A stretch of 64,000 bases of DNA, taken from assembly GCF_018919265.1 (NCBI RefSeq), contig NZ_JAHLQO010000005.1:186001-250000 (forward strand), given 5' to 3'. How positions within the stretch are numbered: the first letter of the stretch is position 1; each line of letters starts with the position of its first letter. Position numbers and translations under genes: made by a program. This stretch comes from Peptoniphilus ovalis. GTDB taxonomy: Bacteria > Bacillota > Clostridia > Tissierellales > Peptoniphilaceae. Positions 14,641 through 61,855 of this stretch are shown here, in pieces. A model generated the notes under the pieces. That model was not told the origin of the DNA, did not search any database, and worked only from the letters and a program-made list of their open reading frames with translations.

Positions 14641-15058
14641 TATATTCGCTCTCGCTCGAGTTTGTTGGGAAGACTTACCATTTCCGACTCGCTCTAAAAA
14701 ACTCCCTATTCGGTCGCATTTTCTGCAGTCCCTGGATAAGGTTCTTCATCAACTTACTCTTCGCTGTCGCTCGAGTTTATTGGAAAGACTTACCATTTCC
14801 GACTCGCTCTAAAAAACTTCCTATTCGGTCGTTTTTTATTCGCTCCCTGCATAAGGTTCTTCATCAACTCACTCCTCGCTGTCGCTCGAGTTCGTTTGGA
14901 AGACCTACCATTCGCGACTCGCTCTAAAAAACTTCCTATTCGGTCGTTTTTTATTCGCTCCCTGCATAAGGTTCTTCATCAATTCAGCCTTCGCTAGCGC
15001 TTGGCTGAATTGTGAAGACCGAAATTATTGCGACTCGTCGCAATAATTTCTACCATTA
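14641..15058 (-). repeat. 115-bp tandem array of the AATGGTAG structured repeat
   Basis: Three units spaced exactly 115 bp apart are marked by CTCGAG at 14655, 14770 and 14885, followed by a divergent fourth unit to 15058. On the minus strand the array starts with TTTAATGGTAG next to a terminator U-tract. Perfect stems include GAAATTATTGCGAC/GTCGCAATAATTTC (15021-15050), AATTCAGCC/GGCTGAATT (14981-15011) and AAAAAAC/GTTTTTT (14811-14837). Related copies occur at 41.0, 50.45, 51.7 and 61.7 kb. No protein-coding frame is supported. Confidence 0.85.
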
Positions 15059-15090
15059 AAAAAAATGCACCCAAGGAGGTGGGTGCAAGG
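15059..15090 (-). terminator. Minus-strand terminator joined to the AATGGTAG repeat
   Basis: On the minus strand TGCACCCA...TGGGTGCA is followed by eight Ts, which run straight into AATGGTAG of the repeat array. No minus-strand gene lies upstream, so the transcript it would end is unknown. Confidence 0.65.
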
Positions 15091-20009: not shown

Positions 20010-20155
20010 AAAAAAAGCCCCAGACCTTCGGGGCATGAAAGTTAAAATCATTCTCTCATCCAGACTATACTGTCGGTATTGGAATTTCACCAATTCGGCC
20101 TAGGCTCGCGGACTTTACCGCCGGTTGGGAATCACACCCTACCCTGAAGATTTAA
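20010..20155 (-). promoter_or_regulatory. FMN riboswitch (RFN element) with terminator, upstream of ribU
   Basis: Read on the minus strand, the RFN landmarks appear in order: AGGGTAGGGTGTGATTCCC, ACCGGCGGTAAAGTC, GCGAGCC and CGAATTGGTGAAATTCC, then CGACAGTATAGTCTGGAT. The terminator GCCCCGAAGGTCTGGGGC plus seven Ts (20010-20034) follows. The element would stop ribU transcription when FMN is abundant. Confidence 0.96.
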
Positions 20156-21821: not shown

Positions 21822-21905
21822 GCGGGAGTGGCGGAATTGGCAGACGCGCTAGACTTAGGATCTAGTTCCATTGGAGTGGGGGTTCAAGTCCTCTTTCCCG
21901 CACCA
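21822..21905 (+). tRNA. tRNA-Leu (anticodon UAG)
   Basis: The acceptor GCGGGAG pairs with TTCCCGC. The D-arm contains GGAATTGGCAGACGC, and the anticodon stem CTAGA/TCTAG encloses the loop CTTAGGA with anticodon TAG. A class II variable arm (TTCCATTGGAGTGG) precedes the T-loop GGTTCAAGTCC. CCA is encoded. The long variable arm and anticodon identify leucine. Confidence 0.97.
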
Positions 21906-40899: not shown

Positions 40900-41720
40900 T
40901 GGATTCGGGGACTGCTATAGATTCGGGGACAGTCCCAAACTGCTGCTTCTTTTCTCGCTACACCTTAGCAGGCTGCCCTTTAATGGTAGCGAGACGAGTG
41001 TCGAAGACACGAGATTAGCGGTTTTCACAATGAAAGCGACTGAAGGGAGCTTGAGTTGATGAAAAACCTTATCCAGGGAGCGAATAAAATGCGACTGGAT
41101 AAGGAGCATTTTAGAGCGAGTCGGGAATGATAGTACATCGAGTGTGAACACGAGATTTACGTTCGTTACAACGAAATCGACTGAAGGGAAGATTGAGTTG
41201 TAAAGAATCTTATGCACAGTGAGGGCTGTCTGCTTCTTTTGCTGTTTCTTTTCTTGCTACACCTTAGCAGGCTGCCCTTTAATGGTAGCAAATTTTAATT
41301 TGCGTTCTTCACGCCGATAATGAGCGTAGCGAAATTAGAGGCGATGAAGAACCTTATGCACAGCGAGGGCTGTCTGCTTCTTTTGAAGTTTTTTTAGTTG
41401 TACGGACAGCCCTGAAGGGCAGCCCGTTTTGATTCCAGGGCACGCAGCAGTCCAAAAAATCTCCCAACCTCTTCCACCACAACCGTCGCAGGCTTCGGAC
41501 AGCCCTGAAGGGCAGCCCGTTTTGATTCCAGGGCACGCAGCAGTCCAAAAAATCTCCCAACCTCTTCCACCACAACCGTCGCAGGCTTCTAGTTTTGCTT
41601 CTTTTTACGAGGTCATACCTATTAAGCTTTCTTTTTTAAAAATGGGGACAGTCCCCTTTCAACTCGGTCAGGGACAGTCCCCATTTTCTACTTAACTTGA
41701 AAATAAACTTTAAAATTTAA
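40900..41720. repeat. Composite repeat block: three AATGGTAG structured repeats and a 93-bp tandem duplication
   Basis: Structured repeats start at 40979, 41126 and 41278; the first pair is joined by the stem AAAATGC/GCATTTT (41086-41112). The segment TTGCTACACCTTAGCAGGCT precedes two of them. A 93-bp unit containing GGACAGCCCTGAAGGGCAGC is present twice in tandem (41404-41590). GGGACAGTCCC cores close the block. Repeated frames in it are not genes. Confidence 0.85.
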
Positions 41721-46039: not shown

Positions 46040-46175
46040 ACTATACCTTATTAAGAGCGGTGGAGTGAATAGGCACTGTGAAGCCCAGCAACCTTTTGAA
46101 GGTGCTAAATCCTACAGATTAATCTGAAAGATGAGGTTTTTATACCCTCACTTTTTGTGAGGCTTTTTTTATGGG
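46040..46175 (+). promoter_or_regulatory. SAM-I riboswitch (S box) with terminator, upstream of metK
   Basis: The S-box core CTTATTAAGAGCGGTGGAG runs into TGAAGCCCAGCAACC and GGTGCTAAATCC. The closing P1 strand GATGAGG pairs with CCTTAT. The terminator CCTCAC/GTGAGG plus seven Ts is at 46146-46170. It would shut off metK when SAM is plentiful. Confidence 0.95.
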
Positions 46176-50380: not shown

Positions 50381-50855
50381 TTGTGGGGATTGATGTCTGC
50401 TTCTTTTGCCGCTTCTTTTCTTTCTATGCCTTAGCAGGCTTCTTTTTAATGATAGTAAATCGAGTGTGAACACGAGATTTACGTTCTTTACAACGAAATC
50501 AACTGAAAGGAAGATTGAGTTGAAAAGAATCTTATGCACAGCGAGGGCTGTCTGCTTATTTTTCACGCTTTCTTTCTTATACGGACAGCCCTGAAGGGCA
50601 GCCCGTTTTGCTTCTTTTTGTTGCCTGCTTCTTCTGGGACTGCCGCGTGCCCTATGGGTATCCCTTCCTATTAATTTAAATGTCTTGTCATTTTTAAATC
50701 TTCATGAAAATTAAGTTTTAAAATTTTATAAGGGGCTGTCCTCGTCCGGCAACTAATCGATGACTTCCCCATCAATTACATAAAATTCTGGGACAGTCCC
50801 AAAAATCAACAACATCCCCAAAAATCCCCCAACCACCCATCTCCAAAAAGAGCAA
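50381..50855. repeat. Repeat block between the AGCS and amidase genes
   Basis: A structured AATGGTAG-type repeat (50449-50560) is visible; its stem GTAAATCG...GAGATTTAC and the stem GTTCTTTACAAC/GTTGAAAAGAAT are intact. It is followed by GGACAGCCCTGAAGGGCAGC and by the cassette GGGACTGCCGCGTGCCCTAT (50638 on). A spacer shared with 38.5 and 51.5 kb and GGGACAGTCCC complete the block. Confidence 0.85.
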
Positions 50856-51389: not shown

Positions 51390-52250
51390 ATCCTTCCAAT
51401 GGGGACACAGTCCCCACGACTGCAACCCTCGCAGGCTCCCTTTTAATGGTAGCAAATTTTCCTAGAGGCTGCTGCGTGCCCTAGAGGGCTGTCCCTTCTT
51501 ATTAATTTAATGTCTTGTCATTATTAAATCTTAATGAAAATTAAGTTTTACTAATTTTATAAGGGGCTGTCCTCATCAATTACAAAAACTGGGACAGCTG
51601 TGTGCCCTGTGGGTATCCCAAACTCCATAAACTTAATTCTTTCATAAATTATTATCATCCTAATATATTTTTATTAGTTCCGGGACAGTCCCAATCCCCT
51701 CAACTTCTTCGACTGCAACCCTCGCAGGCTACTCTTAAATGGTAGCAAATTTTAATTTGCGTTCTTCACTCCTATAATGAAGCCTAGCGAAATTATAGAA
51801 GATGAAGAACCAACGACACAGCGAAGGATATCTGCTTCTTTAGATTTTTTAAATCTAAGGGCAGCCCGTTTTGCTTATTTTTGTCGCCTGCTTCTTTTTC
51901 ATGTTTTCTTTCTTATACGGACAGCCCTGAAGGGCAGCCCGTTTTAGCTTTGGTATCCCCATTAACTACTACATTAGCAGTCCTAGTATGCTATGTTTTA
52001 GGTGCTTTCCCTGCCCCGTTGTTTTTTCAGTCAGAGGACAGCCCCTTTTTTCCTCTTCATATTTCTATTTTATTAGTTCATTATGACTTTAATGTTTTTT
52101 TATCGACAACAAGGGACAGCCCTCTAATCTCTTATCCCCTTAACTTCTTCTTCCCCACCATCGGGGACGGTCCCCTTGCAAACCTGACAGGGATACCCAC
52201 AGGGCACGCAGCAGTCCCCCATCAGAAAATTCACAACCCACCCAACCACC
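51390..52250. repeat. Repeat block between the amidase and sigma-factor genes
   Basis: The block carries the GGGCTGTCCC/GGGACAGTCCC cores. A copy of the 38.5-kb spacer occurs at 51488-51590 and one structured repeat at 51738-51840. GCCTGCTTC is followed by GGACAGCCCTGAAGGGCAGC, and near 52190 a reverse-oriented cassette reads GATACCCACAGGGCACGC. There is no convincing coding frame. Confidence 0.82.
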
Positions 52251-52823: not shown

Positions 52824-53005
52824 ATTAATGTCCTCCTTACATAAATTATAAGGATATTATAAAACATTTGTTTTGATAAGTCAATATGATAAGAATAATT
52901 TTTCAAACTTTTGTTTATTTTGGTGAAAAATAAAAACTCATATAGAGTTTAGATTAGGTAAGTGAATATTTTTGAAAATAAAAAATAAATTTATCTAATA
53001 ATATC

Positions 53006-53115
53006 ATTCTGTAATCTTTTAAAATTAGCATTCTGTAATCTTTTAAAATTAGCATTCTGTAATCCTTTAAAATTAGCATTCTGTGATCCTTTAAAATTAG
53101 CATTCTGTGATCTTA
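53006..53115. repeat. 24-bp tandem repeat (about 4.6 copies) upstream of the sigma gene
   Basis: The unit ATTCTGTAATCTTTTAAAAT plus TAGC starts at 53006, 53030, 53054, 53078 and 53102. Copies differ by one or two bases, for example GTAATC against GTGATC. The spacing is exact, with no spacers, so it is not CRISPR. It occupies the sigma gene's promoter side. Confidence 0.85.
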
Positions 53116-56225: not shown

Positions 56226-57420
56226 CAAAAAGGTTACAATTTAGCAAATATGTTTTATTGATGTGGTATTTACTGGGTTTTAGGATGATTATAACTACGA
56301 CTCTCTTTGCGGCTACGGGGGCTGTCCCTTGCTTTTATTTTTCAACGTCTTCTTGCTGTTGAGTTATTAGAATTAAGTTTCATCCTTATGAATGGGCTGC
56401 CGTGTGCCCTATGGGTATCCCCTTTCTTTAAAACTTTCTTTGGTTCGAGGACAGCCCCTTTTTTTATCTTCTTGTTTCTTTTTTATTTGTTCATTTTAAT
56501 TCTAATGTTTTTTTATCGACAACAAGGGACAGCCCTCTTAGATTAAGACTTATCTTTCCATTTTCTACCATATTTAGGGGGCTGTCATTTAGGGGGCTGT
56601 CCCTTGCTTTTATTTTTTCAACTTCTTCTTGCTGTTGAGTTATTAGAATTAAGTTTCATCCTTATGAAAGGCCTGCCGTGTGCCCTATGGGTATCCCCTT
56701 CCTTAAAACTTTCTTTTGGGGGCTGTCCTTTGCTATTATTTTGTTTCTCTCTCTTGAGTTTTTCTTTATAAGAACTATTTTTTTTAATTTTAAAAGGGCT
56801 GTCCCCTACCATTTGTCTTTCTTTGGTTCGAGGACAGCCCCTTTTTTTCTCTTCTTGTTTCTATTTTATTAGTTCATTTTAATTTTAAATTTATTTTATT
56901 GACAAAAAGGGACAGCCCTCTTAGATTAAGACTTGTCTTTCCATTTTCTACCATTTTTAGGGGGCTGTCCCTTGCTTTTATTTTTTCTATGTCTTCTTGC
57001 TGTTGAGTTATTAGAATTAAGTTTCATCTTTATGAAGGGGCTGTCCCAATCCTTATTTTGTTTCGCTAAGCGAGGACAGCCCCTTTTTTTATCTTCTTAT
57101 TTCTTTTTTATTAACTCATATTAATTTTAAATTTATTTTATTGACAACAAGGGACAGCCCTCTTAGATTAAGACTTGTCTTTCCATTTTCTACCATTTTT
57201 AGGGGGCTGTCCCTTGCTTTTATTTTTTCTATGTCTTCTTGCTGTTGAGTTATTAGAATTAAGTTTCATCTTTATGAAGGGGCTGTCCCAATCCTTATTT
57301 TGTTTCGCTAAGCGAGGACAGCCCCTTTTTTTATCTTCTTGTTTCTTTTTTATTAACTCATATTAATTTTAAATTTATTTTATTGACAACAAGGGACAGC
57401 CCTCTTAGATTTAACTACTC
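56226..57420. repeat. Nested inverted-repeat array on the left of the RAYT
   Basis: Four units lie at about 56310-56542, 56577-56917, 56957-57158 and 57199-57410. Each has outer arms GGGCTGTCCCTTG and CAAGGGACAGCCC, and inner arms GGGGCTG and GGACAGCCCC. The third and fourth are a 242-bp tandem duplication. The leading edge GGTTACAATTTAGCAA at 56230 recurs at 58232. Units also carry TTTCGCTAAGCGAGGACAGC. Small open frames here are artefacts. Confidence 0.88.
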
Positions 57421-57426
57421 TCGTAT

Positions 57427-57993
57427 TTATAAATAAATATCTTTTCCACTATATTTATATGGCATATCTAAGAATTTCATATATTCCTCTCTTGCCTTTT
57501 CTCTATTTTCGTCAAATATATAAAGCAAATAATCTGAATCGCATACTTCATCTTTATCTGCCAAGTAATTTTTGTGTGATGTATATTTATTTACATATTT
57601 AATTCCCAATCCTGCTTCTATTGGATTTCTATGTATATATTTTATAAGATCAAGCAAATATATATCATCTTTACAAGGCTTTGATTTAAATCTAGATTGA
57701 AATACTCTTCCAACATGATTATATTTCTTATTGTAGTATTGAGTGTAGGATTGTTGTATTATTTGCATAGCTTTACTGAGTTTATCATTTTCAATTTTTA
57801 ACAATATATGAAGGTGATTGTCCATTATTGCATATGCATATATTTGAAATCCCAATCTTTTCTTCGATTGGATTATTAGTTTTATGTATTTTTCTTTGTC
57901 GTCATCATCTTTAAATATTATTTCTTTATTATTTCCTCTTGCATAAATATGATAAACTCCAGTTTCTGAATATTGTCTTGGTTTAAATGCCAT
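57427..57993 (-). CDS. REP-associated tyrosine transposase (RAYT, Y1_Tnp/HUH)
   Basis: This 188-residue HUH nuclease is related to the IS200/IS605 TnpA. The His-hydrophobic-His motif is MDNHLHILLKI (His60, His62). The probable catalytic tyrosine is Tyr83 in QQSYTQYYNKKY, and GRVFQSRFKSKP and LIKYIHRNPIEAGL are the RAYT C-terminal signature. It starts at ATG 57993 behind GGAGGGAAAAT and has no frameshift, so it looks functional. RAYTs are single-copy housekeeping-like transposases thought to mobilise REP palindromes. Here it lies inside such an array. No IS-type ends of its own were found. Confidence 0.92.
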   Translation of the reverse strand: MAFKPRQYSETGVYHIYARGNNKEIIFKDDDDKEKYIKLIIQSKKRLGFQIYAYAIMDNHLHILLKIENDKLSKAMQIIQQSYTQYYNKKYNHVGRVFQSRFKSKPCKDDIYLLDLIKYIHRNPIEAGLGIKYVNKYTSHKNYLADKDEVCDSDYLLYIFDENREKAREEYMKFLDMPYKYSGKDIYL

Positions 57994-58079: not shown

Positions 58080-58970
58080 CTTTCATTTGTCTACCATTTT
58101 CGACTCGCTCTAAAATGCTCCTTGGATAAGTTTCTTTATTTAAGGGGGCTGACCTTTTACTTATTTTTTCACTAGGCGAGGACAGCCGTCTTAGATTAAG
58201 ACTTGTCAATCGATTTTCTACCATTAAAAAAGGTTACAATTTAGCAAGTGATTTGTTTTTATGGCTTGTTTATTGGGTTTGAGGTTGATTGTTTCGCGGC
58301 TACGGGGCTGTCCTTTGCTATTATTTTGTTTCTCTCTCTTGAGTTCTTCTTTATAAGAACTATTTTTTTTAATTTTAAAAGGGCTGCTGTGTGCCCTATG
58401 GGTATCCCCTTCCTTTAAAACTTTCTTTGGTTCGAGGACAGCCCCTTTTTTCTCTTCTTGTTTCTTTTTTTCTAGTTCATTTTCATTGACAACTTATTTT
58501 ATTAACAACAAGGGACAGCCCTCCAAAATACAACAAAATGGCAAATGTTTTGTTTTTTTGGCTTGGTTAATGGGTTTGAGGATAATTGTTTTGCGGATAC
58601 GGGGGCTGTCCTTTACTATTATTTTTTCAACGTCTTCTTGCTGTTGAGTTATTAGAATTAAGTTTATCCTTATGAAAGGGGCTGCCGTGGCCCTATGGGT
58701 ATCCCCTTCCTTATTTTGTTTCTCTAAGCGAGGACAGCCCCTTTTTTTAACTTCTTGTTTCTTTTTTATAAAATCATTCTCATTCTAATGTTCTTTTATC
58801 GACAACAAGGGACAGCCCTCTTATACATTTGTCTACCATTTTTTGACTCGCTCTAAAATGCTCCTTGGATAAGTTTCTTTATTTAGGGGTCTGACCCTTT
58901 CCTTATTTTTTCACAAGGTGAGGACAGCCGTCTTAGATCAAGACTTGTCTTTCGATTTTCTACCATTAAA
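58080..58970. repeat. Nested inverted-repeat array on the right of the RAYT
   Basis: Two clear nested units (about 58293-58525 and 58598-58823) match those left of the transposase. Two of the GGGGCTG arms hold the TGTGCCCTATGGGTATCCC or GGCCCTATGGGTATCCC cassette. Partial structured repeats (ACTCGCTCTAAAATGCTCC, 58095 and 58853) and TCTACCATT junctions at 58222 and 58967 are interspersed. Confidence 0.85.
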
Positions 58971-61008: not shown

Positions 61009-61820
61009 TATGGTGGGAAGGCTTGAGGATGGGGACTGTCCTTGTCAGGTTTACTAAGGGACTGTCCCCATTATTTAAGACGAAGCTTGGCTATTTTATT
61101 TAAAACTTATTTTTTAGTTACGGGGACGGTCCCCTTTTCAACTTGTCAGGGACAGTCCCCATAAGTACGGGCAGCCCTCTTGGTTTGGGACTGCCGCGTA
61201 CCCTATGGGTATCCCGTACGTATTTCTTTGTTAATAACTATGTTTTATAAAATCTTAGCAAAAATAATAAATTAATAAATCTTGGGACTGTCCCACAGAT
61301 TTTCTGCGTAATAGAACACTGGGACAGTCCCAAGTTGGACAAATTTTCTTCTTTAATAAAATATATTTATCTTGAGGCTATTTTTTAACTTTAGGTCAGG
61401 GACAGTCCCGAAAGGACAGCCAATTTTAAGTTTTTGGTGGGAAGGCTGAGGATGGGGACTGTCCTTGTCAGGTTTACTAAGGGACTGTCCCCATTATTTA
61501 AGACGAAGCTTGGCTATTTTATTTAAAACTTATTTTTTAGTTACGGGGACGGTCCCTTTTCAACTTGTCAGGGATACCCATAGGGCACACAGCAGTCCCC
61601 ATAAGTACGATGCAGTTGGTTTTTCATCAACTCAGTCTTTGCTATCGCTCGACTTCGTTGTGAAGACATACCATTCGCGACTCCCTTGTAATTGCTCCCT
61701 ATCCAGTCGCAATTACTTCGGTCGCTGCATAAGGTTCTTCATCGACTCAAGCTTCCCTGCGGTCGCTTTCGTCGTGAAAACCGAAAAAATTGTGACCAGT
61801 CACAATTTTTTCTACCATTA
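61009..61820. repeat. Repeat block with a ~165-bp near-identical duplication and two structured repeats
   Basis: A segment starting GAGGATGGGGACTGTCC at 61025 recurs at 61448. The second copy has GGGATACCCATAGGGCAC plus ACAGCAGTCCC where the first has GGGACAGTCCC. Two structured repeats follow at 61620-61812, with perfect stems GTAATTGC/GCAATTAC (61688-61716) and GAAAAAATTGTGAC/GTCACAATTTTTTC (61783-61812). Open frames crossing it are artefacts. Confidence 0.87.
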
Positions 61821-61855
61821 AAAAAAAGAAGCCTTGGTTGGTGTTCAAGGCTTCT
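61818..61855 (-). terminator. Terminator of rplM-rpsI, joined to a structured repeat
   Basis: On the minus strand AGAAGCCTT and AAGGCTTCT pair and are followed by eight Ts, which continue as AATGGTAG into the repeat. Confidence 0.85.

Follow-up and report, generated by a model that had tools for sequence, protein, structure and literature searches.

A strongly covarying three-hairpin repeat behind genes of Peptoniphilus ovalis and its relatives, most like REP elements

PMC6006769 defines a GTAG-tagged REP by GTAG or GTGG positioned, with a gap of 0-2 nt, 5′ of a hairpin whose stem measures 7-20 nt and whose loop measures 2-5 nt, and also describes 'double foot' REPs. According to PMC3733652, a REP unit measures 20-40 bp and TIRYT elements carry a GGGGWSAS motif; its main text makes no mention of Firmicutes or Clostridi. 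Open PMC articles were searched for the foot sequence described below, for REP/RAYT in Firmicutes or Clostridia, and for repeats or RNAs of Peptoniphilus and Anaerococcus. No description of the present element was found, the papers containing the foot string being judged unrelated from their titles.

The repeat described here is a DNA unit of approximately 145-155 nt (130-156 nt as aligned) that forms three hairpins (S1, S2 and S3) and is located behind genes in a family of anaerobic bacteria. It was identified in a window of 64 kb, the whole stretch analysed, corresponding to C5:186001-250000 of the 2.10 Mb P. ovalis genome (G000). The unit is ordered as a (T)TTAATGGTAG foot, S1, S2, a linker and S3, often with further units after. 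Its 5′ edge reads TTTAATGGTAG and is followed by S1, of 13-14 bp with a loop of about 4 nt. S2 is a hairpin of the form GGTCTTCAC ... TGAAGAACC with two bulged A, the linker is TTATSCAGSGA, and S3 carries a GACYGAATARGGA-type loop followed by AGTCG and often by AATGGTAG and another unit.

The original prediction assigned this edge to no named family. That holds for Rfam, where the repeat had no match in the window or at five loci, but the TTTAATGGTAG edge does fit the structural rule for GTAG-tagged REPs in PMC6006769. The basal stem of such REPs (7-20 paired nt, short loop) is matched by S1, and the unit fits the rule in part of its copies. GTAG was present in 5 of 15 alignment rows not chosen by foot pattern, pattern-chosen P. 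ovalis copies having it by selection, and the feet of 20 copies from other genera, read by eye, were GTAG in 10, GGAG in 9 and GAAG in one. Like REPs and REPINs, the repeat has in some copies a 13-14 bp hairpin with a GTAG-type foot at its base, is intergenic, and can form a double-foot fusion. Unlike them, it has three hairpins in about 150 nt, direct tandems and, in many copies, other feet (GGAG, GTAA, ATAA); the whole unit is too long for a GTAG-tagged REP, whereas S1 alone would fit. Its units stand in direct tandem rather than paired in inverted orientation as in REPINs and BIMEs, the sole inverted fusion, TTTAATGATAAG...CTTATCATTAAA, lying between etfA and lrgB in G010 and resembling the double-foot REPs described in PMC6006769. 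The repeat is real and strongly covarying, and is most like REP, although not proven to be one. We put the probability at a little over one half (roughly 55%) that it is a non-autonomous mobile repeat of REP-like kind, some copies of which have been retained at gene 3′ ends.

Repeat units, covariation and strand polarity

A covariance model detected three full copies in the window (157-161 bits), together with several diverged or short copies and two remnants. Allowing at most one mismatch, TTTAATGGTAG occurred 13 times in the window against 2.5 expected, and none of 100 shuffles reached 13. The exact sequence was present 29 times in the genome, compared with 4 for a reversed control; three of the 29 sites appear by eye to lie within coding sequence and are without hairpins.

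The full unit at 40979-41133 (plus strand, 157.1 bits) comprises a foot (40979-40989), S1 (~40989-41019), S2 (~41020-41068) and an S3 core (~41085-41113), followed by AATGATAG. It had been proposed that 40979-41230 form one repeat; a full unit does occupy the first part, and the remainder belongs to a second, degenerate tandem unit, S1-S2 like, that extends over 41123-41288 (plus strand; C5:227123-227288, 51 bits) into a GGGCTGTC end. A short form at 41278-41388 (plus strand, 60.4 bits), of a composite subfamily, has CAAATTTTAATTTG in place of S1 and an S2-like hairpin, all within GGCTGCCC...GGGCTGTC ends. On the minus strand, the full unit at 14905-15060 (159 bits; locus L052) begins in the T tract of a terminator-like hairpin. 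It is accompanied by a second tandem unit lacking S1 (14790-14915; C5:200790-200915, 91.3 bits; period 115) and a third (14675-14800, 75 bits), both on the minus strand, in a tandem array at 14645-14995. The third full unit (61668-61822, minus strand, 161.3 bits; L058) lies directly 3′ of the rpsI terminator, also scored as terminator-like, rpsI being named by NCBIfam; a second unit consisting of S2 alone is found at 61619-61667 (minus strand, 31.7 bits). The plus strand further carries a diverged unit with foot TTTAATGATAG (50445-50565, 69.6 bits), a diverged short form (51735-51831, 36.5 bits) and, by eye, a remnant with foot and truncated S1 (51442-51462). Open reading frames at 40915-41217 (minus) and 61465-61821 (plus) cross the repeats; they were taken as chance, and a coding function was set aside.

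The stems first noticed were found at their places: AAAATGC/GCATTTT at 41086-41112 on the plus strand and the S3 stems at 14811-14837 and 61688-61716 on the minus strand, while the reported end stems are the S1 stems at 15021-15050 and 61783-61812, also on the minus strand. Covariation, on which the prediction turned, was evaluated with 26 full-length copies from the genus aligned by MAFFT without structure; near-duplicates, partial or short units, the groEL copy of G011 and other genera were left out. Paired cells amounted to 90.0%, a measure biased in favour by the derivation of the structure from 15 P. ovalis copies, against 71.5 in shuffles. Changes on both sides were seen in 33 of 46 pairs (23.2 in shuffles) and in 212 cells (59.3 in shuffles), and none of 500 shuffles was as high on any of the three measures. 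A second control with sliding partners gave 25-42 both-side cells compared with the 212; both controls model kinship incompletely. In the 11 copies from the groEL site alone, both-side changes were counted in 29 of 46 pairs, and in 80 cells versus 26.1; the covariation exceeded both controls for this set as well as for the 26 chosen copies.

Unaided, RNAalifold recovered S1, S2 and the S3 core, closing S3 with different outer pairs. The outer S3 stem is weak, with 4 pairs, 72.0% of cells paired and a both-side change in one pair; S1 has 14 pairs and 92.0% of cells paired in the 26 sequences. At S2 columns 54/55 with 77/78 the copies mostly place GA opposite GA, and S1 has GA opposite GA at two more places in some copies. 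Many apparent mismatches of S1 and S2 are of this type and therefore need not be breaks. Strong covariation bears out the claim that structure is conserved; its stronger form, structure and not sequence, goes too far, since the foot, linker and loops are also conserved in sequence.

Folding of the copies at 40979, 61822 and 15060 gave z scores of -4.0, -6.9 and -7.8 as RNA and -3.3, -6.3 and -8.2 as DNA. The predicted minimum-energy fold of the 40979 copy pairs CCTTATCCAG with CTGGATAAGG, disrupting S3, while S3 is retained in the predicted folds of the other two. In all three window copies the foot strand has lower folding energy than its complement, which counts for the mobile reading; against it, the complement also folds better than shuffles (z -4.1, -7.7 and -7.8). 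Counted stems, outer S3 pairs excluded, contain G.T in 32 cells versus A.C in 9, and G.A in 66 versus T.C in 3. Thus the foot strand tolerates G.T rather than A.C. At integron attC sites the structure of one strand is recognised and bases are bulged; the repeat may be comparable in these respects, and differs in that no cassettes were seen. GGA in loops is the CsrA motif; a CsrA sponge was dropped as a candidate because many S2 loops are without GGA.

Distribution and sites at gene ends

With the covariance model, 41 matches were obtained in the P. ovalis genome, and 12 of the 14 genus genomes had at least one. Outside P. ovalis, the 13 remaining genomes had 0-7 matches each, so that most P. 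ovalis copies are without counterpart there; this difference supports the mobile reading, as do the covariation, the location of the foot and three hairpins on one strand, and the T-tract or stop-codon starts of part of the copies. G001 had no match to the model, and those of G007 were weak (25.6 and 35.1 bits). In the family, at least 28 of 130 genomes contain matches, a lower bound because the stricter filters of the family search recovered 23 of the 41 P. ovalis matches. The element was found in five genera, with 8-13 matches in each of four genomes of another genus, g24, and with 8 in G093 and 5 in G016 in the family search. An exact scan of named genomes for the linker region returned 23 stretches. 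Fifteen came from eight named Peptoniphilus species and two from Anaerococcus sp. Marseille-P3915, and each of these 17 had a model match; the six in unrelated organisms had none. A scan of viral_contigs for a single exact pattern, and one 155-base query against plasmids and phages, revealed no carriage by phage or plasmid.

Sites in P. ovalis were surveyed for 26 exact-foot copies, the 29 less the three apparently in genes. Eight begin in a T tract directly behind a stable, terminator-like hairpin, an arrangement present at 3 of 222 control TTTAAT sites elsewhere in the window (Fisher p 6.6e-7); the remaining 18 copies lack it, which counts against the mobile reading. Inspection by eye placed 12 copies at sequence of GGCTGCC, GCTGTCC or GGCTCCC type belonging to another repeat family, two behind a GGAGGGGCATTA repeat and four elsewhere. 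Over ~155 bases, the window copy is matched at 95-96% identity by two of the copies situated in GGCTGCC sequence, which are therefore probably recent; copies at terminator sites have S1 arms of their own. Units were seen in direct tandem, in one inverted fusion and within another repeat family. The copy behind rpsI was found only in this genome among 11 genus genomes checked, in favour of mobility; against it, no clean junction marking an empty site with exact boundaries was found at rpsI, nor was a target-duplication rule. Site choice behind a hairpin and T-rich tract resembles that of IS200/IS605. IS200 copies of Peptoniphilus relatives start behind such a hairpin and tract at 8 of 8 loci inspected by eye (L084-L089, L091, L094), some tracts being interrupted, indicating that transposition into such sites occurs in these hosts. 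Unlike IS200/IS605, the repeat has no coding capacity, and its ends are unrelated to those at the eight IS200 loci, by eye, which speaks against the mobile reading.

In a transposition route of this kind, one strand would fold as ssDNA when replication or transcription exposes it, and a single-strand transposase or a similar enzyme would recognise the fold. The foot would serve as a tag and the T-rich site as a target. A copy landing behind a gene would adjoin the gene's transcript or become part of it, and some of these copies, the one at groEL for example, would be retained.

Of the 14 genus genomes, 11 have a unit immediately after the stop codon of groEL, with a 16-bit remnant in G005 and none in G001 and G007, and in those inspected by eye the unit precedes a terminator-like hairpin. 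Mobility alone does not predict this, and it counts against the mobile reading. It speaks for a selected 3′-end RNA element, whose hairpins would stabilise the mRNA, support termination or provide a processing site in 3′ UTRs such as those of groEL and dnaK, mobility being incidental; to this possibility we give perhaps one chance in a handful. The same genes also recur across genera (rpsT, rplA and guaA, and further dnaK, rplS, pgi, typA and etfA), and many S1 hairpins have, by eye, an A tract and a T tract, as in bidirectional terminators. However, the P. ovalis copies behind rpsI, rpsT and rplA begin after a terminator-like hairpin, which probably places them beyond the main transcript. Many copies follow genes that were not identified or are embedded in other repeats, and S1 and S2 at the groEL site show wholesale differences between G002 and G013.

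Neighbours identified in P. ovalis are rplA, rpsT, rpsI and groEL, with veg found only below its cut-off. Elsewhere in the genus, copies lie behind etfA or lrgB in 7 genomes and between typA and a gene we take to be hisS in 5, one of them degraded. For other genera a subset of 20 + 5 matches was inspected, NCBIfam names being available for one or more of each gene; sites were behind guaA in three genera, dnaK, rplS (2 genomes), pgi (2), rpsT (2) and rplA (a weak match).

Modules at groEL were compared without rows G008 and G011. Among G002, G003, G006, G009 and G010, S2 has 0 of 49 differences, while fourfold sites of groEL differ by 15-34%. Between G002 and G013, with 5% fourfold difference, S1 differs at 17 of 31 and S2 at 17 of 51 positions; between G009 and G012, S3 is near-identical (1 of 47 differ) and S2 is not (22 of 51). 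At groEL, near-identical species show larger differences in their hairpin modules than distant species do; that G002 and G013 are near rests mainly on their distance, since the groEL tree leaves several forks unresolved and includes one misframed row. In G012, a unit of one type is succeeded by one bearing the S2 of the other type, and deletion in tandem arrays may thus explain part of the turnover; the remainder may come from exchange, either among copies or from species to species. It follows that not every arm difference is compensation in place. Arms that differ but stay complementary, as first proposed, are supported by the strong covariation, but many of the differences lie between entire hairpin cassettes, which are turned over as modules.

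The RAYT-like gene and candidate mobilisers

The window contains a candidate mobiliser at 57427-57993 on the minus strand, a RAYT-like Y1/HUH transposase gene with NHLH and YIHRNP (PF01797, 51.1 bits, cut-off 23). Its product scored 66.1 bits with NF047646 (REP-associated tyrosine transposase), below the cut-off of 80, with HUH and Y...NP motifs present. Two degenerate units lie upstream on the minus strand, one just upstream at 58091-58228 (15.4 bits, E 0.018) and one further away at 58833-58970 (19.4 bits, E 0.0015; L057), the latter beginning in a terminator-like T tract. A second RAYT-like gene, at C2:93844, has an element-like unit downstream, and by eye each of the two genes has a unit or remnant within ~150 bp.

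The repeat could accordingly be the true REP family of the 57427-57993 protein, which would bind the foot and S1 and move the unit. Both RAYT-like genes are flanked by units or remnants, the genome with two such genes has the highest copy number, and in G161 a Y1_Tnp gene (42.1 bits, 178 aa, RAYT-like score) lies ~1 kb from a weak element match (37.1 bits), although the RAYT-like profile does not reach that gene. We nevertheless find this doubtful. A RAYT-like profile search (E up to 1e-8) of 30 genomes, including all 28 with the element and three less than 90% complete, matched only G000 (2), G001 (1) and G007 (1), so that 26 of the 28 genomes bearing the element gave no RAYT-like protein in this search. 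In contrast to a REP/RAYT system, such a protein was thus found in only 2 of the 28 hosts. Y1_Tnp had no match in seven element-bearing genomes (G093, G104, G109, G114, G135, G016, G010), which, like the rarity of the RAYT-like protein, also counts against the mobile reading. IS200-type Y1 genes occur in many genus members, and P. ovalis has only its two RAYT-like Y1 matches. A RAYT as general mobiliser is thus weakened by the Y1-free and RAYT-less genomes that bear the element. The related gene of G001 also lies among GGGACAGTCCC repeats, with no such unit seen and no element match in that genome. As these terminal repeats fit the TIRYT GGGGWSAS motif given in the main text of PMC3733652, they may be the real substrate of the RAYT-like protein.

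The two P. ovalis genes stand, like TIRYTs, among GGACAGYCC-type repeats; the three-hairpin unit, unlike a TIRYT, is a separate repeat that merely lies inside some copies of that family. On the 3′ side of the window gene, 242-bp tandem repeats at 56829-57411 (minus strand) contain GGACAGCC-type sequence and AATGGTAG with a short hairpin. The GGGACAGTCCC / GGACAGCCCC family, which resembles TIRYT terminal repeats, occupies 56829-57411, 58244-58820 and other places, with tandem units of 242 and 297 bp around the RAYT-like gene.

Upkeep of the hairpins without selection appears improbable. Template switching would perfect palindromes, conversion would spread cassettes, and paired changes would arise mutationally; S1 arms that are near-perfect yet different between copies, and the module discordance at groEL, are in keeping with this. 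In S2, on the other hand, the bulged A positions and the GA/GA steps recur from copy to copy, features that perfecting a palindrome would tend to erase. An IS605/TnpB omega RNA, a HEARO-type RNA or a group II intron fragment is very improbable, although the unit is structured and adjoins terminators: no Rfam 15 family, HEARO and group II introns among them, matched the repeat at gathering score in the window, nothing came near that score at five loci searched in E-value mode, and PF07282 (TnpB) had no match in any of the 14 genus genomes.

For the REP-like mobile repeat, the candidate options are a mobiliser that has been lost, acts in trans, or is of another kind. A bolder version, for which we would allow about one chance in four, is a family-wide hairpin-cassette element without RAYT, moved by a novel enzyme, that repeatedly settles 3′ of rpsT, rplA and guaA across genera and of groEL across the genus, swaps modules at one site between species, and is kept because the folded 3′ UTR RNA works. 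The mobile reading would extend REP-like elements to a Bacillota family without previously described ones, within the searches made, and would separate them from the RAYT enzymes thought to drive them. It would further reveal an element that keeps the orthologous position at groEL across most of the species in one genus even as its hairpin modules turn over. The analysis also yields a working covariance model, together with numerous natural replicates.

Several minor features accompany the repeats. At L048:1441-1900 (C5:111593-112052), ~60 bp reading as the hisS 3′ end recurs beside each element copy, the gene end thus being present again, and a hisS-like 3′ end recurs similarly in G011 (L069). 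At L213, L214, L216 and L217, all in other genera, a common leader of ~135 nt with a TATAAT box lies upstream of S1; a Pfam scan of a 40-residue fragment of a neighbouring open reading frame gave no match, and in L215 and L222 the leader was seen separately from the element. Elsewhere in the window, Rfam identified an FMN riboswitch (20043-20155, minus), a SAM riboswitch (46045-46137, plus) and a tRNA (21822-21902, plus), and a 24-bp tandem repeat of 4.6 copies with 96% matches (53005-53114) adjoins an open reading frame of 902 aa.
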